Below are positions 37,901-64,000 of a stretch of 64,000 bases of DNA, piece after piece (position 1 is the stretch's first letter; the number at the start of each line of letters is the position of its first letter). The notes beneath the pieces are model-generated. The model made no database searches, had not been told where the DNA came from, and saw only the letters and a program-made list of their open reading frames with translations. The position numbers were made by a program, and so were the translations under genes. Source of the DNA: Owenia fusiformis (taxonomy: Eukaryota > Annelida > Polychaeta > Sabellida > Oweniidae); NCBI GenBank assembly GCA_903813345.2, contig CAIIXF020000004.1, positions 17,407,513 to 17,471,512 of the forward strand, in the 5' to 3' direction.

Positions 37901-40900
37901 AACCCAGAGATATTTGAGTGGCCAAGGATCATTTCTCATTTGACCATTTATTAAATAAGGAAGGTCCTAGTAGATTTTTTTTTATTTATGTATATATTGT
38001 CTTTTTATTACTTTTTTTATTCATAAAAGAACATATGGAATCACTTTACATTTACATATACAATATTGCTTTGTACATGTCGTAGTACTATAATAATCAC
38101 ACATTTCAGAATTTTCTTGGTATCTTGGATGGGCCCAGAAAATAGAATGGGCCCTAAAAGGCCTTAAGGCTCCAAAAAGTAGGCCTTTATGGCCATTACT
38201 GGGCCTTTAAAGGCTTTATTTTTTAATTTTAGGCCAGATTTTGAAGAAAATGGGCCTCAATTTTTCAAAATTAGAGCCCATCTTTTGGTTTTAGGGGTTC
38301 ACACTACTTGAGTGTAGTTCCCATAATTGCCCACATTTCCTCTTTGTCTGTCTGTTTATCCATATTACATTAAGTTCTTAGATTTGCATTATATCCTTTA
38401 ATGTTGGTCTTAACATTGAGTGTTACATCTGTAAACAATTTATGAATATACGCAACATATTTGTTAGGATAGTTGTTCTTAGTTATTTATACATACTGGT
38501 CCTATCAGTATATTCTGATTTGTACAAACTACTGTCAATTCCTCAGGTAACCAATTTTCCATTTCTTCTATCAATTCCATTACCGCTTAAAGCATCATAG
38601 ATGACAAGACAAATTGTCCCTGGTTCTTCTTTACAAAAGGTACAAAGATCAGACCATTGCCTTTTATATTCTTCAATGATTTTGAACATTTTGGTTCTTT
38701 GTAAGCTTTCCTAAGTGTTATATCACTCAATTTTAAAATGTTCTTTGTCTCCTTCTCTTTTGGTTCAGTGTATGTTCTAAAAATGGAAACAAAATCCTTC
38801 CAAAATTTGTTTGAAATAATTTCTTCTATTTTCTATTAGGATTTTGAATCATAGGTAGAGTTCATTTTTCGTCCTACATGTAGGTATTTTAATGATGAGA
38901 CAGATCATACAATATAAGATGGGCAAACTTACCTAATTCACTCATGTCAATCTTGTCTCGTCTATCATCAATTTCAGCTTTCCTCTTACAGATCAATGCA
39001 CACAGAATTGCCATGGCAACCACTTTGATAGGTTGTAGGACCACTATACTTGTGAAAATGGACGTCAAGATAGAGGTGAGCCACTCAATGCTTGCCTGGT
39101 AGCCATATTTCAAGCCATATAACATGATAAAGTATGTACACGTAATGCTAGTGAGGCTGCAGAGTGTCCAATTGATGTACAAGAACCACCATGGCAGCCT
39201 AGGGGAATAAATAGAGGTTGTTTCATGGTTGATTTCCAATGTGAATTTTGTTCCAGGGTAATATGACATTGACTGAGGATGATATGATATTGACTGAGGG
39301 AGATATGATATTGACTGAGGAAGATATGATATTGACTGAGGGAGATATGATATTGACTGAGGGAGATGTGATATTGACTGAGGGAGATATGATATTGACT
39401 GAGGGAGATATGATATTGACTGAGGGAGATGTGATATTGACTGAGGAAGATCTGGTATTGACTGAGGGAGATGTGATATTGACTGAGGGAGATGTGATAT
39501 TGACTGAGGGAGATGTGATATTGACTGAGGGAGATGCGATACTGACTGAGGGAGATATGATACTGACTGAGGGAGATGTGATATTGACTGAGGAAGATCC
39601 GATATTGACTGAGGGAGATGTGATATTGACTGAGGAAGATGTGATATTGACTGAGGGAGATATGATATTGGCTGAGGGAGATATGATATTGACTGAGGAA
39701 GATATGATATTGACTGAGGGAGATATGATATTGACTGAGGGAGATGTGATATTGACTGAGGGAGATATGATATTGACTGAGGGAGATATGATATTGACTG
39801 AGGGAGATATGATATTGACTGAGGGAGATGCAATATTGACTGAGGGAGATATGATATTGCCTGAGGGAGATATGATATTGCCTGAGGGAGATATGATATT
39901 GACTGAGGGAGATGTGATATTGACTGAGGAAGATCTGGTTTTGACTGAGGGAGATGTGATATTGACTGAGGGAGATGTGATATTGACTGAGGGAGATGCG
40001 ATACTGACTGAGGGAGATATGATATTGACTGAGGGAGATGTAATACTGACTGAGGGAGATATGATATTGACTGAGGAAGATCTGATATTGATTGAGGGAG
40101 ATATGATATTGACTGAGGGAGATGTGATACTGACTGAGGAAGATGTGATATTGACTGAGGGAGATATGATATTGACTGAGGGAGATATGATATTGACTGA
40201 GGGAGATGTGATATTGACTGAGGAAGATCTGGTATTGACTGAGGGAGATGTGATACTGACTGAGGAAGATGTGATATTGACTGAGGGAGATATGATATTG
40301 ACTGAGGGAGATATGATATTGACTGAGGGAGATCTGATATTGACTGAGGGAGATGTGATATTGACTGAGGAAGATCTGGTATTGACTGAGGGAGATGTGA
40401 TGCTGACTGAGGAAGATGTGATATTGACTGTGGGAGATATGATATTGACTGAGGGAGATACGATATTGACTGAGGGAGATCTGATATTGACTGAGGAAGA
40501 TCTGATATTGACTGAGGGAGATGTGATACTGACTGAGGAAGATATGATATTGACTGAGGGAGATATGGTATTGACTGATGGAGATGGGATACTGACTGAG
40601 GAAGATATGATATTGACTGAGGGAGATATGGTATTGACCAAACGATTGCAGCTCCAACAAGAGGATTTCGAGAGGGCAAAATAAGATGGTTCAAATGAGA
40701 GCTGAGAAATCCATAAATGGTTCTAGTTCATATATGATATAATAAAAGAACTCATCTAAAATCATTATGTTAAAATGTACAAGGACCGACAAACAAGTGG
40801 GTGATTAGAATAACTCATTACATGTTTGGCCTCATATGACAAAGCATACACATACCCAACTGGCTCTTTCTTCTTCACATGAAGTTCAACATCACTTTGG

Positions 40901-43900
40901 CTCTCCCCAACACTCCAAACATCCTTTTCTGCATGTTGTTTCCACCTCACTAACACAGACTTTTTCCTTCTGCCATCCTCTAATATATATGTTTCAGTAG
41001 CCTCTGCATCGAGCGCAGTAGGCCTTGGAGTTGCAGCTGAAGGATCATGTGAATCAGGCAATATTTTCTTTGGTTTTAACTGTTCCCCATGAAGTTTAAC
41101 ATGCTCATTGGGGCGCTTTATTTCTGCATTTTCACCTTCTGCTTCATCAGCCATGAAGAAAATATCACCACTTCTAATTTCAGTTTCGGATGCTTTCTTG
41201 CCCATCGTCAATTGCTCTTTGAAATCTGATGAATCAAACCTACTCTCAGTTTCCAGACTAGCGTATGATTCAGTATTGAATTCATCATCAATTTCTTGCA
41301 ACTTGCTTGGTTTTGCTTTGGTTAGTCTAAAGAGTTGCACAATGATCACGTTAATTGGGAACATGAGGAGACTACATTCTAATCCCATCACTATAGCTGA
41401 TATTGATATATGGATACTACCAATCTGTTGTTGTAGCTTAGGCTCATCACTTGGTACATCAAAAAACATGATTTTGGTCAACATGTAGCTCAGGAGCAAT
41501 GTAAATGCACACATTAACCGCTGTACCCGTGTGAAATGACTTTCAACAGGTTTTGAGAATATGCTCAACCAGAGATGATCCTCACGCATATTTTTACTAG
41601 CGAGACCCGGGAACGCTGTGCCAAACTGTTTCAAGTCTTTTTCATTTGTAGGAAGTAGTGTACATGAGGTAGTGAAGTCACCACGGTCAACAGCCAACCA
41701 TCTGTTGCACATAAATTGCCAGACATGGTCTTTCTGTAGATCTCTCACAGTAACTTGGGTCAGATACCTGCAGAGGAAGAGGATATAGATTGTTTTGATA
41801 AACTACATGCCATCTTTTGATCCATCAGAGAAACTATAATGTAAAGGCTAGGCTGATTACGTTATTAGCAGTAAGTAGAAATCTGTCCATGCAAAAATAG
41901 TATTAATTAATTTGCTAATTTTGAATAAATAGTACCGTGGGTACTGGGCTCACATGGTGTTGCCCAAAAGTGAATGATGGCTAAAATGACAGAAATAAAA
42001 AAAACGGATATAACTTTTGTGCCGATTTTTTGTAACAAAATCATATCATACAACTACTCTTTACAAGGACATGGCTTTTTACAATGCAGGACACCTGAAA
42101 TTATTTGTAAAGCTAGGAAATGGGCCAAAAGTGAATTTCACTAGAAAAAAATGGTGGCCATTTTGAAAATAGGCGAGCTTTTGAAGCAAGAGTCATAGGG
42201 GAGTTTTTTGTATTGATGTTGAACAACATGTGAGCTAAAAAGTACAACCTATGACATCATATATTATAGTTTCACAGATGGTTCAGTTTATAAAGCCTTG
42301 GGTATAAAAATATCTATACTGTGAGATGGATTATGTTTGAATTCATAACAATAAATAGAGTGATCATCCTACAAAGAAAAATATTGGAAATATAATTACA
42401 TAGGTTGGAAGAGTGATATGAAATATACATGTAGTACTTTTAGTGGGGCATAAAAGGTATTTTAAAAGGTGTTGCTTAAAAAAAGTTCATTAAACTAGTC
42501 AACAGGACTTCATTCTTTTGACACCTATTTCCTGTAGATAAGTGTCCTTTAACGAGAGGTGTTCAATAGGGCATGTTAAGTGTCCTTTAAAGAGAGGTGT
42601 TCAATAGGGCATGTTAAGTGTCCTTTAATGAGAGGTGTTCAATAGGGCATGTTAAGTGTCCTTTAACGAGAGGTGTTCAATAGGGCATGTTAAGTGTCCT
42701 TTAACGAGAGGTGTTCAATAGGGCATGTTTTAGTATCTTACCAGTTTGGATTGTCTCCAGTGTTGTCGTGCCATATGGTTACAGACCTTGGATAGCTCAT
42801 ATTTTCATCTGTTGTCATTAAGAAATAGTCCTCACTTCCATTATGAAACATCTCTACCTGCTTTCCCCTGTGTTTCAAATGGTGGGGCTCGCTAGATCCC
42901 CCGATTCCATTTAGTTGAAGGAACACATTGGCACTTGTACCTGCATCATGACGCCAACCTGTTACTATGGTAATAAGGTAACCATAGTGATGTAAAGGAT
43001 TGTTGTCTTCCAGTAAAGTAACACCAGTCTAAAACACATTCAATGACCATAATGGTTGCTATCATATAACATTACCTTGTTCGATATATCAATGGAAATC
43101 ATAACTGAGACTCAACTGGAGCAAATTAAATAAATAAAAAAATTAAATATTTGATCCTTGATGCTGATTTTTGAAGAATATATTTGCAGAATCAATAAAA
43201 GATTTAGTGAAATAAATTAGAGGATAGCTTCAAAGGCCAATATTAAACTATGAAATGCTAACTTGGGCTCTTCATCACCAAAAAGTAAAGTTAAATTGCG
43301 AGGGAATTTATGAACAAACAATAGGTGCAACATGAACCTCTATATAAATTACTCAGACAAGTATTGTAATGATTCATTACAATCAGGCCCGTAGCCAGGG
43401 GGGTTTTATGGGTTCGAGCCACCACCCCCCCCCAGCCAAAAAATCTTTCAAAATCATGCAGTTTTCACCATTCTGAACACTATAAAGTGATTCTGGCCAT
43501 TTTTGGACCAAAATTGCCACAAGTGAACCCCCCCTGGAATTTTTCAAACTCCTGCTTGCAAATCCTGGCTACCGGCCTGACAATACTTTTTTTTTTTTTT
43601 TTTTCATGTTATCGATTTATTTCAAATAAAAACATAGATGTACAAGGTTAGCTGATTGCCAAAGTTTTGCAACATTAGCGGCAATTAAGTAATATAACAT
43701 AAATGAAATAATAGATATAATATAAAATACAAAAGGTTTACATATATTCTTAATTCCAAATCACTGAATCAAGGAAATCCCATGGGCGGTGATGATGAAA
43801 AAAAGGAAAGAGCAGAAAAATGAAGAAACGGAACCTGTTGTCACAGACGTGATATGATAGTGAAACTCGTGTATATATAATAACTAACAATATGAATTAA

Positions 43901-46900
43901 TTCTTCATTTGTTGATGCATCTAAATCATCTTTTCCAAAAAGTAAAAATTGTAATTTATCATTCAAATTGTAGCTGTTAAACAGGTTTCCTAAATTGTAA
44001 GTATGAAGGCCTGCAATGAGGTTGATTCTTTCATCATGGAGCAGTGGGCAATTTAAAAGAAAATGCAAGGTAGTCAATGGAACACCACATTTACACAAAG
44101 GGTCACTAATGACAATACTTGTGGATCCGATTCTGGCTACTGATTGGTAAATCATGAGGGATTTATTTTCAGCATCAAAAGTATCAAGCCAGTCACATTG
44201 CATGAGCTTGACATGTGACCCTGGCATTTGAGAAAAACAAAGAGATTAAGAGAAATTAATAATACAAATAGGATTAAGTATTTTCGGTCAACTAATTTGA
44301 GTGAAAATTTCTTACTCGAGTAAGCTACTATCGACGGTTAACCAACTGCCAAGCATATTGTAACAAGCCAGATAGACTATGACACAGACATGAAAGAAAG
44401 TATGCTAAATTCAATACCCCACGTGGGAATCGAACCCAGGACCCTCAGTTTCAGTCTGATGATCTACCACTGAGCAAAAGGGCTTAAGCCACTACAGCTG
44501 GCCTGCAGTAGCAACTTGCTATCCAGGGTGATACAACAGGTTGACAACATACAGTAATTACTTACATGTAAAAGATCTTTCCTGTCCCTTTTCCTGGCAT
44601 ACACTGCAAGTATGACAAACAGCGCCCAAACAACAATCATCATAGACACAGTCACTGGGTTATCAAAGAAGGTCAAGAACAACTTGGCATCATTGAAGGG
44701 GTCTATCTTGTTGGGAAAGGCAATGAAACTGCCAGTAAATATTGTCATTTTTAGCCTACAATCACAGAATAAACTTTCTGGTGTAGAAAGCCTTGATACC
44801 TGAAATGTAATAGATTTCATGTAAAACTTGGCATAAAAGGGTAAATGTTTAAAAGCCAATTCAAAAGGTAAATGTTTATAAGCCCATTCAAAATGTGAGG
44901 AATTATCATTTTCATCACTTATGTACAGTCTGAGAGTACATGTACTATATTTCGACACAAAAAGTTGTTTTAGCCATTTTTGGAAAAATTTCAAATATCA
45001 TATCCTGATCATAATACATGACAATACAAGTGGTTCAAACTTTACATAGGGCCTTTAAGGCAGTGTGTGTGCAAGATCTTTTTCAGAAACTCTAAGATGC
45101 TTTGCTACTAAAGCCATCTTTCAAAATTAAACAAATTACTGTGATGATACAGTTATGGAAAAATGTAGCTGTCATCATTTGTGAACATTTTGGAAGTTAA
45201 ATGAATTGAATTAAGATTCAGCTACAAGTAAAATGGTAAAATTTTGTAGACATAATCCCCTAAAACTAAAACTTACAAGACAACCAGAATTGCTCCACGA
45301 CTGTGAAGACTCACTCCAGAACAAGCAGTTTGATGTATAAGTGCCAACATTCAGCTCTATGGACAGAGCCTTAGTTTCATTCTCAGGCCTACCATTCATA
45401 CTGTAACTTGCTATAAACTCTGCATTTGCTGTGTCATTATCAAGTAGTATACCTACAAATACACATTGCTATAAACTCTGCATTCACTGTGTCATTATCA
45501 AGTAGAATACCTACAAATACATACTGCTATAAACTCTGCATTTGCTGTGTCATTATCAAGTAGTATACCTACAAATACATATTGCTATAAACTCTGCATT
45601 TGCTGTGTCATTATCAAGTAGTATACCTACAAATACATATTGCTATAAACTCTGCATTCGCTGTGTCATTATCAAGTAGTATACCTACAAAAACATATTG
45701 CTATAAACTCTGCATTCCCTGTGTCATTATCAAGTAGTATACCTACAAATACATATTGCTATAAACTCTGCATTCGCTGTGTCATTATCAAGTAGTATAC
45801 CTACAAATACATATTGCTATAAACTCTGCATTCGCTGTGTCATTATCAAGTAGTATACCTACAAATACATATTGCTATAAACTCTGCATTTGCTGTGCCA
45901 TTATCAAGTAGTATACCTACAAATACATACTGCTATAAACTCTGCATTTGCTGTGTCATTATCAAGTAGTATACCTACAAATACATATTGCTATAAACTC
46001 TGCATTCGCTGTGTCATTATCAAGTAGTATACCTACAAATACATATTGCTATAAACTCTGCATTTGCTGTGCCATTATCAAGTAGTATACCTACAAATAC
46101 ATATTGCTATAAACTCTGCATTTGCTGTGCCATTATCAAGTAGTATACCTACAAATACATATTGCTATAAACTCTGCATTTGCTGTGCCATTATCAAGTA
46201 GTATACCTACAAATACATATTGCTATAAACTCTGCATTTGCTGTGCCATTATCAAGTAGTATACCTACAAATACATATTGCTATAAACTCTGCATTCGTT
46301 GTGTCATTGTCAAGTAGTATACCTACAAATACATATTGCTATAAACTCTGCATTCGCTGTGTCATTATCAAGTAGTATACCTACAAATACATATTGCTAT
46401 AAACTCTGCATTCGCTGTGTCATTGTCAAGTAGTATACCTACAAATACATATTGCTATAAACTCTGCATTCGCTGTGTCATTATCAAGTAGTATACCTAC
46501 AAATACATATTGCTATAAACTCTGCATTCGCTGTGTCATTATCAAGTAGTATACCTACAAATACATATTGCTATAAACTCTGCATTTGCTGTGCCATTAT
46601 CAAGTAGTATACCTACAAATACATATTGCTATAAACTCTGCATTTGCTGTGCCATTATCAAGTAGTATACCTACAAATACATATTGCTATAAACTCTGCA
46701 TTTGCAGTGTCATTATCAAATAGTATACCTACAAAAACATACTGCTTTAAACTCTGCATTTGCTGTGTCATTATCAAGTAGTATACCTACAAATACATAT
46801 TGCTATAAACTCTGTGTTTGCTGTGTCATTATCAAGTAGTATACCTACAAATACATATTGCTATAAACTCTGCATTTGCTGTGTTATTGTCAAGTAGTAT

Positions 46901-49900
46901 ACCTACAAATACATATTGCTATAAACTCTGCATTCACTGTGTCATTATCAAGTAGTATACCTACAAATACATATTGCTATAAACTCTGCATTCGCTGTGT
47001 CATTATCAAGTAGTATACCTACAAATACATATTGCTATAAACTCTGCATTCGCTGTGTCATTATCAAGAAGTAAACCTACAAATACATATTGCTATGAAC
47101 TCTTCATTTGCTGTATCATTATCAAGTAGTATACCTACAAATACATATTGCTATAAACTCTGCATTCACTGTGTCATTATCAAGTAGTATACCTACAAAT
47201 ACATATTGCTATAAACTCTGCATTCACTGTGTCATTATCAAGTAGTATACCTACAAATACATATTGCTATAAACTCTGCATTCGCTGTGTCATTATCAAG
47301 TAGTATACCTACAAATACATATTGCTATAAACTCTGCATTCGCTGTGTCATTATCAAGTAGTATACCTACAAATACATATTGCTATAAACTCTGCATTCG
47401 CTGTGTCATTATCAAGTAGTATACCTACAAATACATATTGCTATAAACTCTGCATTCGCTGTGTCATTATCAAGTAGTATACCTACAAATACATATTGCT
47501 ATAAACTCTGCATTTGCTGTGCCATTATCAAGTAGTATACCTACAAATACATACTGCTATAAACTCTGCATTTGCTGTGTCATTATCAAGAAGTATACCT
47601 ACAAATACATATTGCTATAAACTCTGCATTTGCTGTGTCATTATCAAGAAGTATACCTACAAATACATATTGCTATAAACTCTGCATTTGCTGTGTCATT
47701 ATCAAGTAGTATACCTACAAATACATATTGCTATAAACTCTGCATTCGCTGTGCCATTATCAATAGTATACCTACAAATACATACTGCTATAAACTCTGC
47801 ATTTGCTGTGCCATTATCAAGTAGTATACCTACAAATACATATTGCTATAAACTCTGCATTTGCTGTGTCATTATCAAGTAGTATACCTACAAATACATA
47901 TTGCTATAAACTCTGCATTCGCTGTGTCATTATCAAGTAGTATACCTACAAATACATATTGCTATAAACTCTGCATTCGCTGTGTCATTATCAAGTAGTA
48001 TACCTACAAATACATATTGCTATAAACTCTGCATTTGCTGTGTCATTATTAAGTAGTATACCTACAAATACATATTGCTATAAACTCTGCATTCGCTGTG
48101 TCATTATCAAGTAGTATACCTACAAATACATATTGCTATAAACTCTGCATTCGCTGTGTCATTATCAAGTAGTATACCTACAAATACATATTGCTATAAA
48201 CTCTGCATTCGCTGTGTCATTATCAAGTAGTATACCTACAAATACATATTGCTATAAACTCTGCATTCGCTGTGTCATTATCAAGTAGTATACCTACAAA
48301 TACATATTGCTATAAACTCTGCATTTGCTGTATAATTATCAAGTAGTATACCTACAAATACATTGCTATAAACTCTGCATTTGCTGTGTCATTGTCAGGT
48401 AGTATACCTACAAATACATATTGCTATAAACTCTGCATTCGCTGTGTCATTATCAAGTAGTCACTACAAAAACATATTGCTTATAAGTAAAATGATCTAT
48501 TCTTGCTTATATAATATACTTCCATGAAAACCTTTTTGGGTTTTAAAGCTTTTTGTCAAGATCACCAAAATATATATATATAAAACTAAAATGATTGCAT
48601 TTTAGTCTTAAAGGGTTCCGATTAGCATCCCGTATAAAAACAATATGGCGGCTCCAGGCGAATCAACTGGATCAGTCCATTTTTAAGAAATAAGGGGAGT
48701 TCTGTAAAATCCAGTTTATTGAAATTGTCTTTGAGATAAAGTAATCCGTTTATAATGATTTTGAAAACGTTATCCAAAGAGTGATTGCGTTCAAAGAATA
48801 CATATACAACAGCCAATATAAATCCTTGTATTAGAAACCGGTTTGTCTTGCTTTGTTTCATTTGTAGGATATTTTATATGCAAAGCTGTGTGCTATTACG
48901 TTATGGGGAAATTTAGATACCAATTTTTCCTTATTATACACAAATAGAAGATCCTGAAGCTTCATCCATAAATGTGGAATTGATTTGTCAAAATAAAAAT
49001 CACCCTTTTATAAATGTGTGACGATCTATAATATACTTATGCTAAATAACAGTAAGAGGTGTTGACACAACGACCTCGAACCTGTGAACCCTTGAGTATT
49101 ATTCCGGGATCGGGCCTTTTATACTAAACGGTGAGCAACACCAGAAATGAGCGTTCGATTTGCTAAACGATATGCGTCACCCTTTAAATCAACCTTTATG
49201 ACCCCCCCCCCCCTACAGCCCTACACTCTGGAGGTCACGTAGGTGGGGGACTAGTTCAATACTATGGAAATAAGAAGTGGATGAGCCAAAACAAAACAAC
49301 ACTTTTTTTGTCAACTTCTGGGTCAATTTTTCATAATCAAGTCGACTCGAATTTTCTCCATGACTTTCACCATTAGAAGTTACATGCTTTTTAGTTGAAT
49401 GTCTTACCAATGAACAATGTTCTATGAATGTCAGATCTAGGCAGATATATCATATTAGGTTGAGCTGTCTTATTTGTTCGTGATCGATAGAGTGTCTCAT
49501 TATTGCATGGTATCGTCATGGTTTCATTCCTCATATCATCCATATTTGGTCTTTCACCCTCTTTAACATGCACCTTAAGAGTGATGTTTTCCATGACAGG
49601 TTGAACCTTTATGACAGGAGTTTCACCCTTAGTTACATGGAACCTCAGGACAAGTATATCTTCATCTTTGAACTCTGGCAAGGTGAATGTGTTAAAGGTT
49701 GAGTTTTCCTGGATTGGTACTGTAAGGGTGACACTCCCCATCTCAGGTATATCTGAAACAATAACCTATGTGCAATATCTGTTGCACAAAGTAGTGATGC
49801 ATGAATGTCATTGTTTGTTTTTCTGTATATTTATACTATAGCTTGCTTATCAGGTGAAACTACAAGTATGCACTTACATGTATATATACATACAGGCCAG

Positions 49901-52900
49901 TAGCCAGGGGGGGTTCGCAGGGTTCGGGCGAACCCCCCCCCCCCCCGGCCAAAAATTCTTTCAAAATCAAGCAGTTTTTCACCATTTTGAGCACTTCTCA
50001 AGTGATTTTAGCCATATTTGGGCCAAAATTGTAAAATGTGATCCCCCCTTGAAATTTTTGAAAAATGAACCCCCCCTTGGCAAATCCTGGCTACGGGCCT
50101 GACATATATAGTTTTGGATGAACAGAACTCAGATTAATATAGCATGGATCCAGTATAGAGGTTATTATTCATTAAATCAGTTGATACAGAATCATATCAC
50201 AGGTCCATAGCCAGCTTTTGCCAAATGGGGGGTTCACTTTTTAAAAAAAATTCAGAGGGTTCGCATTTGACCATTTCTGCCACCAATCACTTAAAAGTGC
50301 TCAAGATGGTGGAAATCTACATGATTTTGAAAGATTTTTTAGCAGAGACCACCGCTTGAACCCGCGCCATCCCCCTGGCTATGGGCCTGTAACTTGGTCA
50401 CAATGTCTTGATTGTTATATCACACAAACTACAATTTTCTGAAATAACAAAGAAGTCCTATCATATATTTGCCCAATTTCGAGTACCTCTTGTGGGGAGA
50501 TGTATTGTGAGATCCTCTGCTATGCTGTCTACATTCAGTGCAAGGCCATGTGAATTCCTCATTGAAAGCCCTATCAGATCAGTGGTCACATTGTCACCAG
50601 TGTCATCCCAGATGAACGGATTCTCCTCCATCTGGTACAACTGCAAACACGAATCAATCAACCAATACAGTAGAACCTGTGTAATTCAAATATCCACTGG
50701 GACTGGCCAAATGTGTTTTGATTGGCAGTTGCATGGTTTTAACATGAAAGTGTATTATTTTATATGGCAGATAAAATAAAATTAGACCAAATAGTCTTCA
50801 GATTAAGAGATGTTCAGAAAGGAGAGGTGTTTTGATATGGTTCAATAATATGAATGTGCATGTATATCCCTAGGCATCAGCATATCAAATTTAATCCAAA
50901 TCAGTCAACTGGTACTTGAGTTATCAAAGATTACATTTTAAATGAAAAATAGTGGAGATTTTGATAAATAGTGCTTGAAAATCTTGAAAATTTCTTCTCG
51001 AGTAGAGCTCCTTTATCTCTAGGCATCAATATATAAAATTTAAAACATTATCTTTTTTAATGAAAAATGGCGGCCATTTTGAAATTCAGCTGACGCCTTT
51101 GAAATTTCCTCTGAAAACAGATCTCCTTCTTCCCTGGACATCAGCATGTAATATTGGAACCAAATCCATCCGATGGTATTTGAGTTATCAATGATTATGT
51201 TTTTACGAAAAATGGTGGCCATTTTGAAATTCAGTGGCCATCTTGAAAATGTCTTCTTGAACAGACTTCCTTTGTCTCTAGGCATCAGCATATAGAATTT
51301 GAACCAAATCATTTATGAGTTATCAAAGATTACGGTTTTTACGAAAAATAGCCGCCATTTTAAAATTCAGCAGCCATCTTGAAATTGTCTTTTTTAACAA
51401 GACTCCTTTTATCCTTAGGCAACAGCATATAAAATTTGAACCAAATCGGTCAACTAGTATTTGAGTTATCAAAGATTTTTTACAAAAAATGGTCGCCATT
51501 TTGAATTGAGAAAATATATTATTATTATATGTTGGAAATTCCTTCTCGAGCATAGGTCCTACAACCATAACGCATAAGTCTATATAATTTGAATTAAATC
51601 CGTCAACTGGTATTTGAGTTATTACCTGGACAGACGGCAAACAGACCGACGGCTTTCCTATATCCCCCTCGAACTTCGTTCGGTGGGATAACAACAAAGT
51701 CCACCAGCCCATAGACAGTTGGAGTTGAATGGTTTGAGGCAAAAAATATTTCACAATTTTGAGCACTGTTCAAGAGATTTTGGGCCCAAATTGTCAAATT
51801 TGAACCCCCCTGAGAATTTTTCAGAAACTGATCTGTCAGACTCTGGCAAAAGCTGGCTATGGGCCTTTTGAGTGAATAAAGGGAGGTAGATGTAGTAGTG
51901 GAAAAGCAAGTAACGGAGGGGGGGGGTAGGGGGGGGGGGGTAGGTACGAAAAATTTCGAACGGAATGCGTGACATATTCGTAATTCGCGTGAAAAGTCCG
52001 AACGAAATGCGTACATTTTTTTCCGGCGTTCGTATTTTTGCTGTGTAGACGATCTTTTTTAGAAATTTTTCTACAGAAATATTTTTGCTTGACAATTACC
52101 AGGTAAAATGCGTATTTGCGTGACATTTTCTGTCACGCAAAAATAACTGGCGTGACTTCAAATTCTTCAGCAAATGCGTGACAAATACGCAAATTGCGGG
52201 ACAGTTGACAGGCCTGATAACATAAATGTACAATAGTTTATTGTCAAAGACCACTTACGTATAATTTGTAGGCATCATCAAAGATGTCTTTACTGTCAGT
52301 TGCCCCAATCTGGGCTGCCTTAAGTGCATGTGCACTTGGAAGAAGAATAGTTGCAGGGGTGCTTCCCTCTGGTGGTGAGCCAACTGATAGTTCCTTATTA
52401 CCTATAAAAAAATAATTGATTATGTTTGCAGCCACTATGAAATTCAGTTGCCATCTTGAAAGATTACATTTTTTTCAAAAAATGGTGGCCATTTCAAAAT
52501 TCAGTGATCATTTTGAAATGATCTTCTTTACTGTTCCTTTTCTCCCTAGGCATCAGCATATAAAATTTGAACCCAAACGGTTGACTGGTATTATACCCAG
52601 TTTTAAGAACATATGTAAAATTTAAAACATATTTTGAAAGAGAACAATATTTAAGCCTCCAAAACAAAAATCACAGGCAACCATTTTCACAACTGAGATT
52701 AAGTTCACATAAGTTACAAATAGAACTGGGTAGACATGTGAAACCACAGCCAAAACCTGAATATGAAAGATTATTTAACTTTTGTGGGGGAATAGAAAAT
52801 GAAGTTCATTTCATGATTAAATGCCAAATGCATAGAGAAAATAGAAAAATATTATTTGACAACATCACTAGCAAAATTAATATTGATGAACATCATCCTG

Positions 52901-61900: not shown

Positions 61901-63988
61901 CTGGAATCGCGATGACAAGATTGATCTAAAAACGTCCACGATGGCCACCAGAATGTAAGATGACTGCCGAAAAGTTAATCAGCTCTAGAACTTCTTACCA
62001 TGATCCATGTGTGAAAATTTGAAGTAAATCTTTTAAGTCGTTTCCCTGGAATTTTGATGACAAGATTTCTCTTAAAACTTCCAAGATGGCCTCCAGAATG
62101 CAAAATGACCGCCCAAAAGTTTATAATCAGCTCTACAACTTCTTACTATGTAACATGTGTGAAAATTTGAAGTAAATCCGTCAAGTGTTTTTCCTGGAAT
62201 TGTGATGACAAGAAAGTGAGACGCCGTGTGCCTGGCAAGCTGATGACAATATCGTACCTTTTTTTAGGTACGATAAAAACATAAATGATGTGTGTAAAAT
62301 GTCAGCCATCAGGCCTGTAGCCAGGGTTTCTCTAGTGGGGTCTATATTTGGGGCATTTGCACACACGTAGCACAGCCTAAAAGATATTTCTGTCTTCATG
62401 GTCAGAAAATAGTTTTAATCTATAACTGTCTGAAATTATTTGCGATAACCTAAGTGGCCTTTTGTCTTAACAATGTTTCGAGATTACTTTAACGTCAAGT
62501 AATTTAAATTGTGATATTAGTATTCCATTTCATTCTGACACTTATCTTATTTTATTTAAGATTTCAATTTTTTAAAAACACAATTCAATGATATTGATCA
62601 TTTCATCACTTTCAGTCTATGACACAAATCTTATTTATTTTGAGATTTAATTTTTTGTAACAAAATTATTTCATACAACTACTTTTTACAGTGACATGGC
62701 TTATTACAATGCAGGACACCTGAATTTATTTGTAAAGCTAGGAAATGGGCCAAAAGTGAATTTCGCGAGACAAAAATGGTGACCATTTTGAAAATAGGCG
62801 AGCTGTTGAACCAGGAGTCAAAGGGGAGTTTTCTGTCTTGATGTTGAACAAAAATAACTTAAAACAGGAATCTTATCGACAGAGGTTTTAAGGCAAATGG
62901 TCCAAAAGTGGATTTCGCAAGACAGATTGACAAATCAATTTTAACTAAAATAGCTGAAAATAAAAAAACAGATATAATTTTTTGCCGATTTATTGTAACA
63001 AAATTTCATACAACTACTCTTTACATTGACATTGATTTTAACAATGCAGGACACCTGAAGTTACTTGTAAAGCCAGAAAATGGGTCAAAAATGAATTTCG
63101 CGAGATGATAAAACATAACGCATTGGCTGAAATGAGAATCTTTGAAATCTCATTCACATTTTTGCTAATGATAGCATACTGTTTTATTTTTTGGATGCTT
63201 AAAGGTGACCATATTCAGTGGTAAACAATATTTCAGATTACAATAATAGCTTTTTAATCATTAAGGGTACTGTAAAAGTATGTAGTCTTTGAATCCTGAA
63301 AATGGACACATATAACATCATCTGATTCCATCATGTAGAATACAGAAAAATATATCAAAGAGTATGGTTAGTAGATTTAGACCTCTGTCTGTATAACAGT
63401 TAATCCTCTCCAACTACATTGTACTTGTGTTGTACTCACCTAATGACTCAGGCTGACTCTGCATTACAGTAATAGAGAGTGCCTCTGTCTGTATAACAGT
63501 TAATCCTCTCTAACTACATTGTACTTGTGTTGTACTCACCTAATGACTCAGGCTGACTCTGCATTACAGTAATAGAGAGTGCCTCTGTCTGTATAACAGT
63601 TAATCCTCTCTAACTACATTGTACTTGTGTTGTACTCACCTAAAGACTCTGGCTGACTCTGCATTACAGTCATGGAGAGTGCCTCTGTCTGTATAACAGT
63701 TAATCCTCTCTAACTACATTGTACTTGTGTTGTACTCACCTAAAGACTCTGGCTGACTCTGCATTACAGTCATAGAGAGTGCCTCTGTCTGTATAACAGT
63801 TAATCCCCTCCAACTACATTGCACTTGTGTTGTACTCACCTAAAGACTCTGGCTGACTCTGCATTACAGTCATGGAGAGTGCCTCTGTCTGTATAACAGT
63901 TAATCCTCTCTAACTACATTGTACTTGTGTTGTACTCACCCAAAGACTCTGGCTGACTCTGCATTACAGTAATAGAGAGTGCCTCTGT
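24662..63988 (-). CDS. Polycystin-1-like protein (PKD1L family), 3' part, 12 exons
   Basis: Exons in coding order: 63940-63988 (or one of its tandem copies), 52259-52401, 50487-50640, 49408-49752, 45277-45452, 44566-44799, 42742-43028, 40856-41767, 38933-39198, 30656-30954, 26452-26620, 24662-25971. Total 4344 nt, 1447 residues, all GT-AG and phase-consistent. Order: GAIN-like region (about 1-289), GPS (about 260-310), first membrane helix, PLAT/LH2 (about 375-490), helices 2-5, helix 6, the extracellular TOP/polycystin domain (about 890-1130) and the channel with helices 7-11. Family knowledge: these 11-helix receptors pair with PKD2-type subunits in mechano-, chemo- or fertilisation-related signalling, often on cilia. 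The exact paralogue (PKD1, PKD1L1/2/3, PKDREJ) cannot be told without the N-terminus. Two other genes lie in its introns. The short cytosolic tail has no obvious coiled coil. Confidence 0.92.
26452..26620 (-). CDS. Polycystin-like exon: TOP domain (VSTVDDIWEYL)
   Basis: Acceptor TTTATATCCAG, donor GTAAAA (weak), phase 0 to 1. VSTVDDIWEYLRNTMVPSLY and GVVRLRQQRI match the conserved start of the polycystin extracellular domain (D-x-W-x-W/Y-L and V-R-L-R-Q-x-R). A 42-bp tandem array starts about 20 bp upstream of its acceptor. Confidence 0.93.
26641..27060. repeat. 42-bp tandem array, about 10 copies (left block)
   Basis: Unit words: ACATATACAGTATAGGGCAT, then AACATTACAAAATGTCACCACC. Because 42 is divisible by three and the unit lacks stops in some frames, long spurious open frames appear on both strands. 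The words GGCATAACATTACAAAATGT resemble the GGCATTAACATGACAAAATG terminus of the dispersed family at 1195-1325, so the array may have grown from a mobile-element end. Confidence 0.93.
27061..29720. repeat. 136-bp satellite, about 19 copies, rich in AGGTCA half-sites
   Basis: The period is about 135-137 bp, measured from recurring GTAGATGATTTTGAAA (for example 27148, 27285, 27420). Each unit carries TGACCTTTTTTGACCTTGA and AAGGTCATTGAAGGTCA, with several AGGTCA half-sites in direct and inverted arrangement. Some units have an extra AATCTTAAGTCA insertion, giving sub-types that alternate. Intronic in the polycystin-like gene. Confidence 0.95.
29735..29860. repeat. Mobile-element end at the array junction, with hairpin
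   Basis: GTTACAGACGCC, then repeated GGACGCCAACC words, then a 27-bp hairpin at 29831-29857 (TATGTCACCAC, loop TTTTG, inverse). It is the reverse-complement counterpart of the dispersed family at 1195-1325 and separates the 136-bp satellite from the second 42-bp block. Confidence 0.55.
29861..30175. repeat. 42-bp tandem array, about 7 copies (right block)
   Basis: Same unit as 26641-27060, with some units reading CAGTAAAGGGCAT. Its presence on both sides of the 136-bp satellite suggests the satellite, or an element bearing it, interrupts one older 42-bp array. Confidence 0.92.
30656..30954 (-). CDS. Polycystin-like exon: helix 6 and start of TOP domain
   Basis: Donor GTAAGT, phase 1 to 0. 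Contains YMQTKITQRNYGPPDPKLL, a basic stretch, then helix FKDIVLYVVFILALIVVVHG and the luminal start of the TOP domain (INAAYEGDVAFGD). The acceptor is ambiguous: TTGGACAG (start 30954) or TTCCAG six nt further (start 30948). Both keep frame and differ by two codons. Confidence 0.92.
30973..31565. repeat. Dispersed repeat with GGCAGCCATTTT blocks and TTCGATGGGATAA end
   Basis: AAATGGCCGCC/AAGATGGCTGCC blocks about 130-180 bp apart, ending in a GGACAGATGGACGGACGG stretch and CCGAACTTCATTCGATGGGATAA. The same ending occurs near 51615-51690 and 53520-53610. An interspersed family; class not identified. Confidence 0.6.
31985..33428. repeat. Satellite of GCAACATCAATATCTCTCGAC units with higher-order structure
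   Basis: Units of about 35-45 bp built on GCAACATCAAT, CTCTCGACTAC and AATGTCTAATG alternate in a mixed order. A 90-bp non-satellite block (CTCTCTAATTGTTTGTGATA, then TCTGTGACTGTCGAT) is present at both ends (32095-32185 and 33350-33430). The second copy is interrupted by the 1.6-kb element 33429-35021. Confidence 0.92.
33429..35021 (+). mobile_element. 1.6-kb element with perfect 17-bp terminal inverted repeats
   Basis: Ends AAAGGAGTTGGGTAAAC (33429-33445) and GTTTACCCAACTCCTTT (35005-35021) are exact inverse complements. The uninterrupted paralogous site at 32165-32195 reads ATTTCAAATTTCAATCATTT, showing where the element sits. Inside are a small zinc-finger-like exon (34022-34248), a decayed repeat of ATATTTGGGTGATATTG words (34380-34670) and two TGACCTTGACCT words (near 34882). 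No transposase domain was recognised, so this is probably a non-autonomous or decayed DNA transposon. Confidence 0.8.
34022..34248 (+). CDS. Small CxxC-type zinc-binding exon inside the element
   Basis: Opens with ATGGCC in good initiation context and reads MAKCYSCCICRKQ, then a basic stretch PRKRRKV, then IICNNCRL. Two cysteine pairs about 30 residues apart could bind one zinc ion. The frame runs into a perfect donor (CG then GTAAGA at 34249), so it is probably the first coding exon of a spliced gene whose other exons are missing or unrecognised. Family not identified; likely element-encoded. Confidence 0.45.
35089..36045 (-). CDS. Carbohydrate sulfotransferase (CHST type), catalytic domain; 5' end unresolved
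   Basis: An open frame of 319 codons ending YDFVL then TAA. It carries both PAPS-binding motifs of Golgi 6-O-type carbohydrate sulfotransferases: 5'-phosphosulfate loop VTYRRTGSSFIAELF and 3'-phosphate motif LFLVRDPRGLLNSR, plus LIKYEDFSENP downstream. Family knowledge: such enzymes transfer sulfate from PAPS to Gal, GlcNAc or GalNAc of glycans and are type II Golgi proteins. Oddity: there is no in-frame ATG before the first motif, and a stop occurs at 36046-36048, so either an upstream exon (tail and membrane anchor) exists beyond 36 kb or this is a pseudogene. A possible acceptor is TTTTTGAAAG just inside the frame. It lies within an intron of the polycystin-like gene, same strand. The body has no internal stop or frameshift. 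Confidence 0.85.
   Translation of the reverse strand, partial: NQIHVIIFERLKTVAVNVENDTSIGVTTVTKVVIVTYRRTGSSFIAELFRSNSGVFFMFEPFIGQIHDNRKPIEDIQLTGPIYLQELMNCRFQSTSLFTTSKAWFWRILMNRNLVDLAKKNLTELSELCSNKKLVVAKTIRIRDNTALQRLSGYFGNDTALLFLVRDPRGLLNSRNNESPAYKHSSLNSKSEDMDTTCKSMLQNLKFIQSYQVTNNKPRLLLIKYEDFSENPLMQSQKLYADLGLILPNEVKTWIRNNTNSEDKHNKLGMQYIYGTKKNSKIVHQRWKKQLRLPELRMVQKLTTCAKLMKALNYDFVL
36046..38559. other. Intron stretch upstream of the sulfotransferase frame
   Basis: A+T-rich. No membrane-anchor exon for the sulfotransferase could be recognised. A CAGAGTGACCCAAAAATG word near 37248 is a half end of the 20211-20273 family. GGCC-rich low-complexity sequence lies at 38125-38285. The open frame near 37562-37765 shows no domain pattern. 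Confidence 0.5.
38560..38870 (-). pseudogene. Decayed LINE reverse transcriptase C-terminal fragment
   Basis: Broken minus-strand frames read FWKDFVSIFR, then (another frame) EEYKRQWSDLCTFCKEEPGT. The C-x2-C-x-E-E-P-x-T pattern is typical of the zinc-knuckle-like tail after LINE reverse transcriptases. The frame shifts at least once and the expected His/Cys partner is altered, so it is not functional. Confidence 0.5.
38933..39198 (-). CDS. Polycystin-like exon: helices 4 and 5
   Basis: Acceptor ATTCCCCTAG, donor GTAAGT, phase 2 to 1. LPWWFLYINWTLCSL, YGLKYGYQASIEWLTSILTS and VVLQPIKVVAMAILCAL match the conserved polycystin-1 helix 4/5 region (L-P-W-W; L-Q-P-x-K-V). The upstream 21-bp array is open in this frame, so an unspliced message would also read through; splicing is preferred because the previous exon joins perfectly. 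Confidence 0.94.
39255..40640. repeat. 21-bp tandem array (about 66 copies), open in four frames
   Basis: The unit reads GATATGATATTGACTGAGGGA on the plus strand. A 21-bp period means seven codons, so stop-free frames run the whole length: on the minus strand LPQSISY, SQYHISL and ISPSVNI heptads, on the plus strand ILTEGDM. Substitutions are mostly at few positions (GGA/GAA, ATG/GTG/CTG). Intronic, 57 bp from the next exon's acceptor; the long open frames are by-products unless the intron is retained. Confidence 0.93.
40856..41767 (-). CDS. Polycystin-like exon: PLAT end, helices 2-3, cytosolic loop
   Basis: Acceptor CCTCTGCAG, donor GTATGT, phase 2 to 2, 912 nt. YLTQVTVRDLQ and FMCNRWLAVDRGD finish the PLAT/LH2 domain. 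LWLSIFSKPVESHFTRVQRL is the conserved polycystin-1 motif before helix 2 (MCAFTLLLSYMLTKIMFF). Helix 3 is near GLECSLLMFPINVIIVQLF. A charged loop of about 150 residues follows before helix 4. Confidence 0.95.
41990..42235. repeat. Dispersed repeat (CAGGACACCTGAAATTATTT type), copy 1 of 3
   Basis: Words TTTTACAATGCAGGACACCTG, AGCTAGGAAATGGGCC and TTTTGAAAATAGGCGAGC recur in the same order at 62640-62860 and, partly, 62900-63107. The class is unknown; copies differ by point changes. Confidence 0.75.
42538..42729. repeat. 38-bp tandem repeat, five copies, 12 bp from a splice donor
   Basis: The unit is AAGTGTCCTTTAACGAGAGG followed by TGTTCAATAGGGCATGTT, starting near 42540. It lies at the very start of the intron after the PLAT exon (donor at 42741). 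Words match the GTGTTCCACTT/TACAGTA element family in style. Confidence 0.9.
42742..43028 (-). CDS. Polycystin-like exon: PLAT/LH2 domain
   Basis: Acceptor AATGTGTTTTAG, donor GTAAGA, phase 0 to 2. TGVTLLEDNNPLHHYGYLIT leads to VTGWRHDAGTSANVFLQLNG, the signature start of the PLAT domain; DYFLMTT and SVTIWHDNTGDNP are the next strands. PLAT domains bind lipids and partner proteins on the cytosolic face. Confidence 0.95.
43384..43580. mobile_element. Inverted-repeat element, CAGGCCCGTAGCCAGG termini
   Basis: Ends CAGGCCCGTAGCCAGG and CCTGGCTACCGGCCTG are inverse complements; the inside has runs of C and AATCATGCAGTTTTCACCA. A MITE-like family with at least six further copies in the window. 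A LINE poly-A end abuts its right side. Confidence 0.75.
43587..44240 (-). mobile_element. 5'-truncated LINE with poly-A tail
   Basis: On the minus strand a frame (44227-43841) encodes SDPLCKCGVPLTTLHFLLNC then PLLHDERI, the C-x-C-G-x5-T-x2-H-F-L-x3-C motif at the C-terminus of many non-LTR reverse transcriptases. A 3' UTR, an AATAAA word and an 18-nt poly-A follow (plus-strand T run 43587-43604). Only the last part of the element is present; it is inserted beside the inverted-repeat element at 43384. Confidence 0.8.
44416..44484 (-). mobile_element. tRNA-like SINE head
   Basis: On the minus strand GCTCAGTGGTAGATCATCAG resembles a polymerase III A box, and GGGTTCGATTCCCAC a B box, with spacing typical of tRNA. 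The acceptor arms pair poorly and sequence continues past the CCA end, so it is a tRNA-derived SINE rather than a tRNA gene. The body probably extends toward 44280. Confidence 0.65.
44566..44799 (-). CDS. Polycystin-like exon: second half of GPS and first helix
   Basis: Acceptor ATTACATTTCAG, donor GTAAGT, phase 0 to 0, 78 codons. VSRLSTPESLFCDCRLKMTI is the C-terminal part of the GPS; family members have C-x-C-x-H-L-S/T-x-F, here C-D-C-R-L-K-M-T-I-F, lacking the histidine and one residue longer. SFIAFPNKIDPF is the tethered-peptide region. Helix VTVSMMIVVWALFVILAVYA is followed by RKRDRKD, the typical cytosolic basic motif. Confidence 0.94.
45277..45452 (-). CDS. Polycystin-like exon: first half of GPS
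   Basis: Acceptor TATTTGTAG, donor GTAAGT, phase 1 to 0. Reads ILLDNDTANAEFIASYS, then CLFWSESSQSWSNSGCL, the GPS pattern C-x-F-W-x7-W-x3-G-C. The exon's first 44 nt and its acceptor are the last unit of the adjoining 58-bp array, so this acceptor is one of about 52 near-identical ones. Confidence 0.93.
45410..48470 (-). repeat. 58-bp array (about 52 copies) carrying the GPS-exon acceptor
   Basis: On the coding strand each unit contains GTATACTACTTGATAATGAC, ACAGC[GA]AATGCAGAGTTTAT and AGCAATATGTATTTGTAG. The last word is the 3' splice site and the first two are the first codons of exon 45277-45452. Units are very similar (TTCGC/TTTGC, GTC/GCC, few indels). Because 58 is not a multiple of three, entering at any upstream acceptor leads to a stop within the next unit; only the gene-proximal acceptor reads on. 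The intron lies on the right. Confidence 0.95.
48480..49407. other. Intron stretch right of the 58-bp array
   Basis: TA microsatellite near 48576, otherwise no recognised exon or element. The open frame 48622-48861 (minus) has no domain pattern. Confidence 0.5.
49408..49752 (-). CDS. Polycystin-like exon: GAIN-like region
   Basis: Acceptor TATTGTTTCAG, donor GTAAGA, phase 1 to 1, 345 nt. Beta-rich sequence: DIPEMGSVTLTVPIQENSTF, TPVIKVQPVMENITLKVHV and a basic stretch ending RTLFIG. No single motif, but position, phase and composition fit the region before the GPS of polycystin-1-type proteins. Several N-x-S/T sites indicate an extracellular location. Confidence 0.85.
49893..50102. mobile_element. 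CAGGCCxGTAGCCAGG inverted-repeat element
   Basis: Full-length copy: left CAGGCCAGTAGCCAGG, right CCTGGCTACGGGCCTG. Interior shares AATCAAGCAGTTTTTCACCA with 43384-43580. An apparent open frame over it is spurious. Confidence 0.75.
50200..50392. mobile_element. CAGGTCCATAGCC inverted-repeat element, reverse orientation
   Basis: Ends CAGGTCCATAGCCAGC and CTGGCTATGGGCCTG; the interior is the reverse complement of 49893-50102. Two copies in opposite orientation lie within 100 bp. Confidence 0.65.
50487..50640 (-). CDS. Polycystin-like exon: GAIN-like region with NPF motif
   Basis: Acceptor CGTGTTTGCAG, donor GTACTC (weak), phase 0 to 1. LYQMEENPFIWDDTGDNVTT contains the N-P-F/W pattern common before the GPS of polycystin-1 relatives, followed by LSMRNSHGLALNV and EDLTIHLPTR (beta strands). 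Confidence 0.88.
50860..51690. repeat. Old tandem repeat, about 130 bp (AAAATGGCGGCCATTTTGAAA)
   Basis: Words AGGCATCAGCATATAAAATT, TTTGAGTTATCAAAGATTA and ATGGCGGCCATTTTGAAATT recur about five times with heavy divergence, ending in GGACAGACGG and GAACTTCGTTCGGTGGGATAA as at 31565. A further partial copy is at 52440-52600. Interspersed family in this gene's introns. Confidence 0.7.
51735..51869. mobile_element. Partial CAGGCCCATAGCC element
   Basis: Right half only: CCCCCCTGAGAATTTTTCAG, then AGCTGGCTATGGGCC. The left end was not found. A G homopolymer follows near 51920. Confidence 0.5.
52259..52401 (-). CDS. Polycystin-like exon: GAIN-like region
   Basis: Acceptor TTTTTTATAG, donor GTAAGT, phase 1 to 0. 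Reads NKELSVGSPPEGSTPATILL, then PSAHALKAAQIGATDSKDIF and DDAYKLY. Phase 1 entry fits the 49-nt mini-exon ending in phase 1 in the array at 63.4-64 kb, 11 kb upstream in the gene. Confidence 0.85.
52640..53007 (+). mobile_element. LINE reverse transcriptase C-terminal fragment
   Basis: The plus-strand frame reads FSQLRLSSHKLQIELGRHVK, then LFNFCGGIENEVHFMIKCQM, the R-x-S-S-H-x-L-x-I-E-x-G-R and C-G-x3-E-x-E-x-H-F-x3-C pattern of the end of a non-LTR reverse transcriptase, finishing NLKLLGD and TAG. Open without stops over about 120 codons; the rest of the element is absent. It lies antisense in the polycystin-like intron. Confidence 0.75.
53904..54025. mobile_element. 122-bp palindromic element (32-bp arms)
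   Basis: Left arm ATGATTTAAAATGCAATACA at 53904 and right arm ending TGCACTTCAAATCAT at 54025 are near-perfect inverse complements; AATACAGAATATA words are repeated further right up to 54210. Confidence 0.65.
55508..55617. mobile_element. Short CAGGCCCGTAGCC inverted-repeat element
   Basis: Ends CAGGCCCGTAGCCAG and CTGGCTACAGCCCTG, about 110 bp, an internally deleted version of 43384-43580. Confidence 0.65.
55664..55740. mobile_element. Fragment of the AAGGAGGATTGGCTCCCAG element
   Basis: CAAGGAGGATCGGCTCCCAG then AGTGCAACATCGATATTC and CCCATATATGAGCATG match the reverse complement of the right side of 17595-17896. The other end was not found. Confidence 0.6.
56930..57102. mobile_element. 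173-bp palindromic element (AGCTTGCATTCG termini)
   Basis: Left AGCTTGCATTCGTAAATGCA and right TGCATTCGCGAATACAAGCT are imperfect inverse complements, and pairing continues inward (CAACTATTTTATG with CATAAAATAGTAG). A moderately decayed MITE. Confidence 0.65.
57925..58074. repeat. 50-bp tandem repeat, three copies
   Basis: GTATGACAACAGCATAACCT begins at 57925, 57975 and 58025 with near-identical 50-bp units. It is a recent small array, about 450 bp downstream of the LicD-type gene's stop. Confidence 0.9.
58527..59612 (-). CDS. LicD/fukutin-type nucleotidyltransferase-fold membrane protein
   Basis: Intact single-exon frame, 361 residues, ATG at 59610-59612 with AAG before it. Residues about 6-20 form a signal anchor, giving type II (Golgi-like) topology. 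The core has the LicD signature: LSGGSLIGSYLFHDIIPWDD (118-137) continuing DIDLHV, with the D-D-D-I-D metal-binding acidic cluster. QLPFLDIFPF is a second family motif. Family knowledge: LicD-fold enzymes include bacterial phosphocholine transferases and animal fukutin/FKRP (ribitol-5-phosphate transferases); substrate here unknown. Several N-x-S/T sites (62, 82) suit a luminal protein. It lies in a polycystin-like intron, same strand; absence of introns could mean retroposition, but no poly-A trace was seen. A 70-bp perfect inverted repeat begins 58 bp before its ATG. Confidence 0.87.
   Translation of the reverse strand: MKTKLRLLIGVIVVIMIGLYLSRNKLKDNHMNIAKFYINKNKFDESRESIQVKEKDLVRKNNFTLRKDLVQQKSLNPLFITNCSVLPRRMPDSMYFDLYELLHALDGAFKKQNVRYVLSGGSLIGSYLFHDIIPWDDDIDLHVDIRDFEQQVTAFQELALTGKYGFTSSSYGIFRELQCGIKQRDLNSWRKVWNNGDNQLNLFVKMFKCSGPKAVPPLQFQLPFLDIFPFEQNKTHVFTRTLNTVPGESLAFADFYPIKDRPFHNGWFPCMRHPQAEIKAKCKNKKFKCLYHHLDHFTGKVTLKNFMRNANCSEVVQCYPTVHRIKHSDYTEERLIYNGRVLHTINTSEILQMDLLPLSFP
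59670..60599. mobile_element. 930-bp unit with perfect 70-bp inverted repeats
   Basis: Arms 59670-59739 and 60530-60599 are exact inverse complements over 70 bp (left arm starts TTTTTACTTTCTGTTATTAT), enclosing 790 bp without recognised coding sequence. Perfect identity implies a young event or gene conversion. No target-site duplication is obvious. It may be a non-autonomous transposon or an inverted duplication of the LicD gene's upstream region. Confidence 0.75.
61001..61321 (-). mobile_element. tRNA-derived SINE with TAA-repeat tail
   Basis: On the minus strand the head CGCTATGGCTCAGTGGCAGA (A box) and CCCGGGTTCGATTCCCGG (B box) is followed by about 230 bp of unrelated body and a (TAA)n tail (plus strand TTATTATTATTATTATTAT at 61002-61020). 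This is the complete structure of a SINE. The tail type suggests mobilisation by a LINE with a short-repeat tail. Confidence 0.8.
61500..62225. repeat. Old 145-bp tandem repeat, five copies
   Basis: Words TCCAAGATGGCCACCAGAAT, CCGAAAAGTTAATCAGCT, AGAACTTCTTACCATG and GTGGTTTTCCTGGAAT recur about every 145 bp with divergence. Similar in style to the 130-bp repeats at 50.9-51.7 kb, but a different unit. Confidence 0.75.
62310..62345. mobile_element. Single end of the CAGGCCTGTAGCCAGG element
   Basis: CAGGCCTGTAGCCAGGGTTT matches the terminal repeat of the family at 43384-43580; the other end is missing. Confidence 0.45.
62640..63107. repeat. Two further copies of the CAGGACACCTGAA dispersed repeat
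   Basis: Copies at about 62640-62860 and 62900-63107 carry AATGCAGGACACCTGAA, AAAGCTAGGAAATGGGCC (or AAAGCCAGAAAATGGGTC) and GAATTTCGCGAGA, matching 41990-42235. All are in introns of the polycystin-like gene. Confidence 0.7.
63440..63488 (-). CDS. Polycystin-like mini-exon (copy nearest the next exon)
   Basis: Phase 0 to 1, 49 nt, encoding TEALSITVMQSQPESL plus one base that completes a glycine codon with exon 52259-52401. The peptide reads smoothly into NKELSVGSPP, which supports its being real. Which of the six or more copies is spliced cannot be decided from sequence: all have intact acceptor and donor. Confidence 0.65.
63640..63688 (-). CDS. Alternative mini-exon copy with Met variant
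   Basis: Same splice sites and phase as 63440-63488, but codon 6 is ATG (Met) rather than ATT (Ile), and serine/proline codons differ synonymously. Copies 63740-63788 and 63840-63888 share Met; 63540-63588 and 63940-63988 have Ile. Including two copies would add 98 nt and break the frame. Confidence 0.5.
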
Positions 63989-64000
63989 CTGTATAACAGT

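Follow-up and report, generated by a model that had tools for sequence, protein, structure and literature searches.

A tandem array of complete 49-nt candidate exons at a polycystin-1-like gene of the annelid Owenia fusiformis

The last 619 bases of a 64,000-nucleotide stretch of Owenia fusiformis DNA (GenBank assembly GCA_903813345.2, contig CAIIXF020000004.1, positions 17,407,513 to 17,471,512 of the forward strand; this whole stretch is referred to as the window, and its G+C content is 34.7%) are a tandem array with a period of 100 bp, in which each complete unit, read on the minus strand, contains an acceptor, a 49-nt open exon, and a donor, in the phase that the downstream exons of a polycystin-1-like gene require. 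We consider it probable, at roughly 0.55, that a minisatellite of the "mirage" kind captured a whole exon at this locus, and that the redundant copies are used one at a time without diversification of the protein. Because there is one whole exon per unit, unlike in the mirages compared below, we use the term "whole-exon mirage". The array was not classified as a mutually exclusive exon cluster, because its copies give essentially one peptide and their single use is only predicted.

The minisatellite would have originated at this locus, around a small coding exon of the polycystin-1-like gene, and would have taken in the whole exon plus both splice sites. The mRNA would use one copy, joined to exon B at position 52401, and the remaining copies would leave with the large introns, while messages containing two or more copies would meet a stop codon and should be degraded. 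Different messages may use different copies, and such interchangeable copies would be kept alike by unequal exchange together with coding constraint. If messages use the copies interchangeably, the array would show an exon in the act of multiplying without harm to its gene. In a more specific version, which can be called an "exon lottery", each message would draw exactly one copy, which could be any of them, and spacer length and frame would impose this rule with no need for regulators; since every copy would be drawable, selection would keep every copy coding while unequal exchange changed their number. We regard this version as possible but rather doubtful.

Structure of the array and its effect on the reading frame

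The array was detected at 63382-64000 by Tandem Repeats Finder (TRF) with 6.2 copies, 96% matches, 0 indels, and a score of 1140, which is far beyond chance. Six complete exons lie within 63440-63988 at a spacing of exactly 100 bp, and the unit on the minus strand reads ...TTATACAG, then 49 nt, and then GTGAGT... The acceptor AG, the exon length of 49 nt, the donor GTGAGT, and an open frame 0 were each found in 6/6 copies, in agreement with the original prediction, which described six full 100-bp copies without stating the strand. Frame 0 is translated as TEALS[I/M]TVMQSQPESL plus G, and the exons differ from each other at 0-4 of 49 positions (15 pairs). If the exon is real, each 100-bp unit spans both of its exon-intron boundaries. 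The upstream end of the array is beyond position 64000; the six copies are those inside the window, and the 5'-most copy is outside it. The presence of pairs with identical exons (copies 2 and 4, and copies 5 and 6) fits the pattern that would be expected of tandem exchange. A convincing relative of the 100-bp unit was not found in the window at 1-63381 (best blastn match of 13 bp, E 0.15; peptide tblastn, E 1.8), and a dispersed satellite within the window was rejected for this reason. Searching viral_contigs and genome_contigs, which are not animal-genome collections, for a degenerate exon pattern gave 0 exact matches.

The claim of the original prediction that only one copy can be used at a time is borne out in sequence terms. 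A single copy joined to exon B leaves the frame open in 6/6 cases, while joining two to six copies results in a stop in 57/57 ordered subsets, by amino acid 41 at the latest; when all copies are skipped, a stop is met at amino acid 66, assuming that the upstream exon ends in phase 0. Furthermore, the spacers are 51 nt long, compared with 205 nt for the shortest modelled intron (19 intron intervals from two gene models, of which one interval, in an anosmin-like gene, probably hides an exon), and the sole yTnAy branch candidate occupies spacer position 40, which leaves 11 nt to the acceptor. For human mutually exclusive clusters, a donor-to-branch distance of <50 bp served as the criterion for potential steric interference (PMC5740500). 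A 51-nt spacer is probably too short for splicing as an intron between neighbours, and by its frame and spacing rule the array would resemble a mutually exclusive cluster in its working.

Coding signal and membership in the polycystin-1-like gene

Among the six copies, 5/49 exon sites are variable (15, 18, 39, 45, and 48), and all of them are third codon positions (hypergeometric p 0.0023). Four of these differences are synonymous and one is Ile/Met, which is what had been described originally as mostly synonymous differences plus Ile/Met, and the copies encode two peptides, in 3 copies each, that differ in this residue only. The third-position pattern falls in the frame demanded by exon B. 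Coding on the plus strand was rejected, because the only frame that places the variable sites in third positions has a stop in 6/6 copies. As a control we used the exon part of another minisatellite in the same gene, a 58-bp array that repeats the acceptor and the start of exon E. In 51 of its ~53 units (units with indels were left out), 7, 7, and 9 variable sites are located at codon positions 1, 2, and 3, respectively. Third-position sites therefore made up 5/5 in the 100-bp array versus 9/23 in the 58-bp array (Fisher p 0.020) when a degenerate edge unit was included in the latter, and 8/20 of the 58-bp array sites when it was excluded. The position of the variation suggests that coding constraint acts, or acted until recently, on the copies in the window.

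A minus-strand model of 12 GT-AG exons, A to L with the array exon as exon A, extends from the array to 24662; all phases agree, and 1,445 amino acids are read before the stop. The array exon has phase 0 in and phase 1 out, as required by exon B at 52401. Pfam detected Polycystin_dom (2.2e-42), PKD_channel (7.9e-31), and PLAT (2.2e-16) in the model, and a GPS motif (E 6.2e-4) whose 20.7 bits are just below the curated cut-off of 22.5. Exons F-L match the solved structures of PKD2L1 (best, 5.7e-64), polycystin-2, and polycystin-1 (best 4.9e-48). The gene was named polycystin-1-like because of the order GPS, PLAT, channel, which we take to be typical of that family. The assignment to a polycystin gene in the original prediction is supported for the downstream exons by the in-phase model and is less certain for the array itself, although we infer that the array exon belongs to the polycystin-like mRNA.

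Several points weigh against the whole-exon mirage. The coding evidence is consistent yet small, since it consists of five variable sites. Spacers vary less (3/51 sites) than exons, and therefore constraint is visible only in the location of the exon variation and not in its amount. When singletons are removed, the third-position sites of the two arrays are reduced to 4/4 versus 3/6, too few for a useful test. In the codon-level test of synonymous against nonsynonymous differences that the original prediction called for, the ratio of 4:1 in the 100-bp array did not differ significantly from 8:12 in the 58-bp array (edge unit excluded; p 0.14). No solved structure matched the stretch of 367 residues that begins with the array peptide and runs to exon F (best E 0.32). 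In addition, the array and exon B are separated by an intact LicD-like single-exon gene (58530-59642, Pfam 2.5e-11) of the same strand. An intact sulfotransferase-like single-exon gene (35092-36045), again of this strand, lies between exons I and J, and therefore the LicD-like neighbour is not unusual for the polycystin-like gene.

The splice-site scores add to these objections. The internal array acceptor is weak: 12.8% of the 3,407 minus-strand AGs score as well, and 10/11 modelled acceptors (9/11 in the leave-one-out analysis) outscore it. A first, stricter acceptor model with small pseudocounts gave the array -6.5 to -5.6, compared with 4.7-16.3 for the modelled acceptors, and thus rejected it; because 11 training sites over-fit, a pooled-tract acceptor model was then adopted. 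Given such weak internal acceptors, a copy adjoining the normal upstream intron may win. The donor is good: among 3,379 GTs, that of five copies out of six ranks in the top 0.9%. When phase-1 exon candidates in 52402-64000 were ranked, the five rankable copies were at ranks 4, 5, 6, 11, and 12 of 188, and the other entries in the first 12 were fragments of the LicD-like gene or extended forms of the array exons. In the 9,867 nt of the A-B intron that remain once the LicD-like gene is set aside, the best phase-1 candidate scored 14.3, versus 15.9-17.6 for the array. This ranking was undercut by the controls: a candidate scoring at least 15.9 was present in 33/100 random 11-kb Markov sequences and one scoring at least 17.6 in 12/100, and such candidates also occur on the wrong strand of this interval (5) and in the other polycystin introns (12). 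The exon score alone is therefore poor evidence.

Alternative explanations

It could be that only one terminal copy is used and that the copies in the window are intronic decoys like those of the 58-bp array. The likeliest candidate for the used copy would be the 5'-most one, which lies beyond 64000 and would follow a normal intron. Such an arrangement would be consistent with weak internal acceptors behind 51-nt spacers, and also with the behaviour of the 58-bp array, in which the exon-side acceptor keeps the frame and 11/11 nearest decoys tested lead to a stop 23 amino acids later. Amphioxus mirages were also reported to be without interference in regular splicing (PMC3087553). We nevertheless consider this explanation unlikely, because the variation in the window is restricted to third positions, in contrast to the variation at all positions in the 58-bp array, although this contrast shrinks when singleton sites are removed, as mentioned above.

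A less probable alternative, which we regard as quite unlikely, is that the array is outside the polycystin mRNA, being either a local satellite that is open by chance or exons of another transcript, such as the 5' region of the LicD-like gene that lies downstream. The same-strand position of this gene within the A-B intron, the random sequences that equalled the exon score, and the weak acceptor are compatible with this, whereas the third-position pattern exactly in the required frame and the lower score of the best candidate in the rest of the A-B intron argue for membership.

A regulated mutually exclusive cluster choosing among functionally different copies is very unlikely: the equal length, same phase, homology, length that is not a multiple of three, and donor-to-branch distance of <50 nt agree with the criteria or mechanisms in PMC3228551 and PMC5740500, whereas the copies give two peptides only, the spacers are near-identical and therefore contain no clear copy-specific selector, and a docking-selector RNA structure was unsupported (z -1.15 for the whole array with 20 shuffles; z -0.60 and 0.10 for two single units). 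As a separate observation, the array acceptor can be folded into a hairpin of spacer AGAGAG with exon CTCTCT (63455-63512); this 58-nt piece, which was picked by eye, had a z of -1.95 with 9/200 shuffles as good, and was not counted as evidence. The original prediction had left the choice between an exon-choice system and a satellite that captured an exon. The exon-capturing minisatellite is favoured by the two peptides and by the second junction minisatellite of decoy acceptors in the same gene, and exon choice is disfavoured.

Junction repeats in the window and comparison with known systems

Table 1. Positions of the array copies, the modelled polycystin-1-like exons, and the other junction repeats in the window
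Feature	Position	Strand	Remarks
Exon copy 1 in window, TEALSITVMQSQPESL	63940..63988	-	donor TGG/GTGAGT
Exon copy 2	63840..63888	-	exon identical to copy 4
Exon copy 3, TEALSMTVMQSQPESL	63740..63788	-	
Exon copy 4, TEALSMTVMQSQPESL	63640..63688	-	
Exon copy 5	63540..63588	-	exon identical to copy 6
Exon copy 6, TEALSITVMQSQPESL + G	63440..63488	-	nearest exon B; AG acceptor, GTGAGT donor, frame 0 open
Partial 7th copy	63382..63388	-	acceptor AG 63389-63390 and first 7 exon nt; downstream array end, then unrelated sequence
Exon B	52259..52401	-	in-phase (phase 1) partner of array exon across 11,038-nt intron
Exon C (LYQMEENPF...)	50487..50640	-	phases consistent
Exon D	49408..49752	-	
Exon E	45277..45452	-	acceptor and first 45 nt copied in 58-bp array
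Exon F	44566..44799	-	GPS motif and first transmembrane segment (label by eye)
Exons G-L	24662..43028	-	PLAT, polycystin domain, channel, stop
58-bp array, ~53 copies (TRF 53.2)	45408..48486	-	head-to-tail acceptor TTTGTAG/ and first 45 nt of exon E (acceptor mirage)
115-bp x2 duplication	11159..11390	+	exon end and donor, anosmin-1-like gene (donor mirage)

The 100-bp array is not the only repeat at a splice junction in the window (Table 1). The units of the 58-bp array are without a donor, and the AG is kept in 50/51 compared units. A third junction repeat, the 115-bp duplication, is located in a gene that adjoins the polycystin-like gene, contains a WAP domain (1.9e-9), and is presumably anosmin-1-like, as judged from its domain order; its first donor is in frame into the next exon (exon 2 to exon 3), and the second donor shifts the frame. 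Repeats are thus found at two exons of the polycystin-like gene and at one exon of its neighbour, and therefore they may be a habit of the genome and not a one-locus curiosity. The unit lengths of 58, 100, and 115 each leave a remainder of 1 on division by three.

The anosmin-like model was drawn by eye and was used for the exon 2 donor and the intron lengths only; even with the end of exon 3 corrected by one base, its nine exons cannot be read through in a single frame (29 stops). The phases of exons 4 and 5 disagree, and therefore the 3,987-nt interval between 14648 and 18636 probably hides one or more missed exons and likely comprises two or more introns; it also contains a 55-bp x28 array. 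Other arrays were observed in the polycystin-like gene. A 21-bp array of ~65 copies (39261-40638) lies ~63 nt upstream of exon I, with an acceptor-like CTCCCTCAG in the unit, which is open in several frames, and one 42-bp unit family forms two arrays in one gene (26656-27075 and 29858-30174), one of which ends ~36 nt before exon K.

A general attraction of tandem arrays to splice junctions was unsupported when 49 TRF rows, hand-merged into 29 arrays, were compared with 40 junctions (the end of exon 3 of the anosmin-like gene was set one base too far in this test and in the intron lengths). Only 3/29 arrays span a junction (circular-shift p 0.90), and 8/29 span one or lie within 70 nt of it (p 0.20). 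With a score cut-off of 90 the latter number was 8/19 (p 0.060) and with a cut-off of 300 it was 7/14 (p 0.063); when the 100-bp array was left out, these became 7/18 (p 0.073) and 6/13 (p 0.083).

In the literature searched, which had most subscription papers outside it, the original Adh3 mirage paper included, no description was found of an array in which every minisatellite unit contains a single complete exon. The closest systems are the amphioxus mirages, which are minisatellites over exon-intron boundaries of Adh3, TnC, the globins BflGb6 and BflGb9, and PGBD5; their units are tens to ~160 bp long and contain a splice junction and part of an exon, with splice signals repeated in many units (PMC3087553, PMC3902484). 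The globin mirages cover one boundary per array and are reported as probably not disturbing normal splicing, and their copy number varies from one haplotype to another (PMC3087553). In PGBD5, 60-bp and 108-bp repeats overlap splice sites and differ in number between assemblies, and an unconfirmed exon was predicted within the 108-bp repeats, covering most of two units (PMC3902484). As far as these descriptions go, their anatomy is shared by the 58-bp and 115-bp repeats of the window, whereas the 100-bp array holds a whole exon and both splice sites per unit, unlike the globin arrays with their one boundary. The hosts in these reports are all cephalochordates.

An earthworm metallothionein gene (clone Lr6F14) is similar in that it has duplicated copies of its fourth exon together with minisatellite-class repeats; these copies are absent from the final transcript, and in the accessible part of the report no array of short units that each carry an exon with both of its splice sites is described (PMC12783039). 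Mutually exclusive clusters, such as those of myosin heavy chain and Dscam, have criteria and mechanisms that include equal length, same phase, homology, a length that is not a multiple of three, and short spacing (PMC3228551, PMC5740500). The array shares with them the length, phase, and homology of its copies, the frame shift when copies are combined, and very short spacers, and differs from them in that its units are 96% alike, give two peptides only, and have no visible selector. If it is true that the copies are interchangeable, such an exon lottery would be a plausible ancestor, or start state, of mutually exclusive exon clusters.

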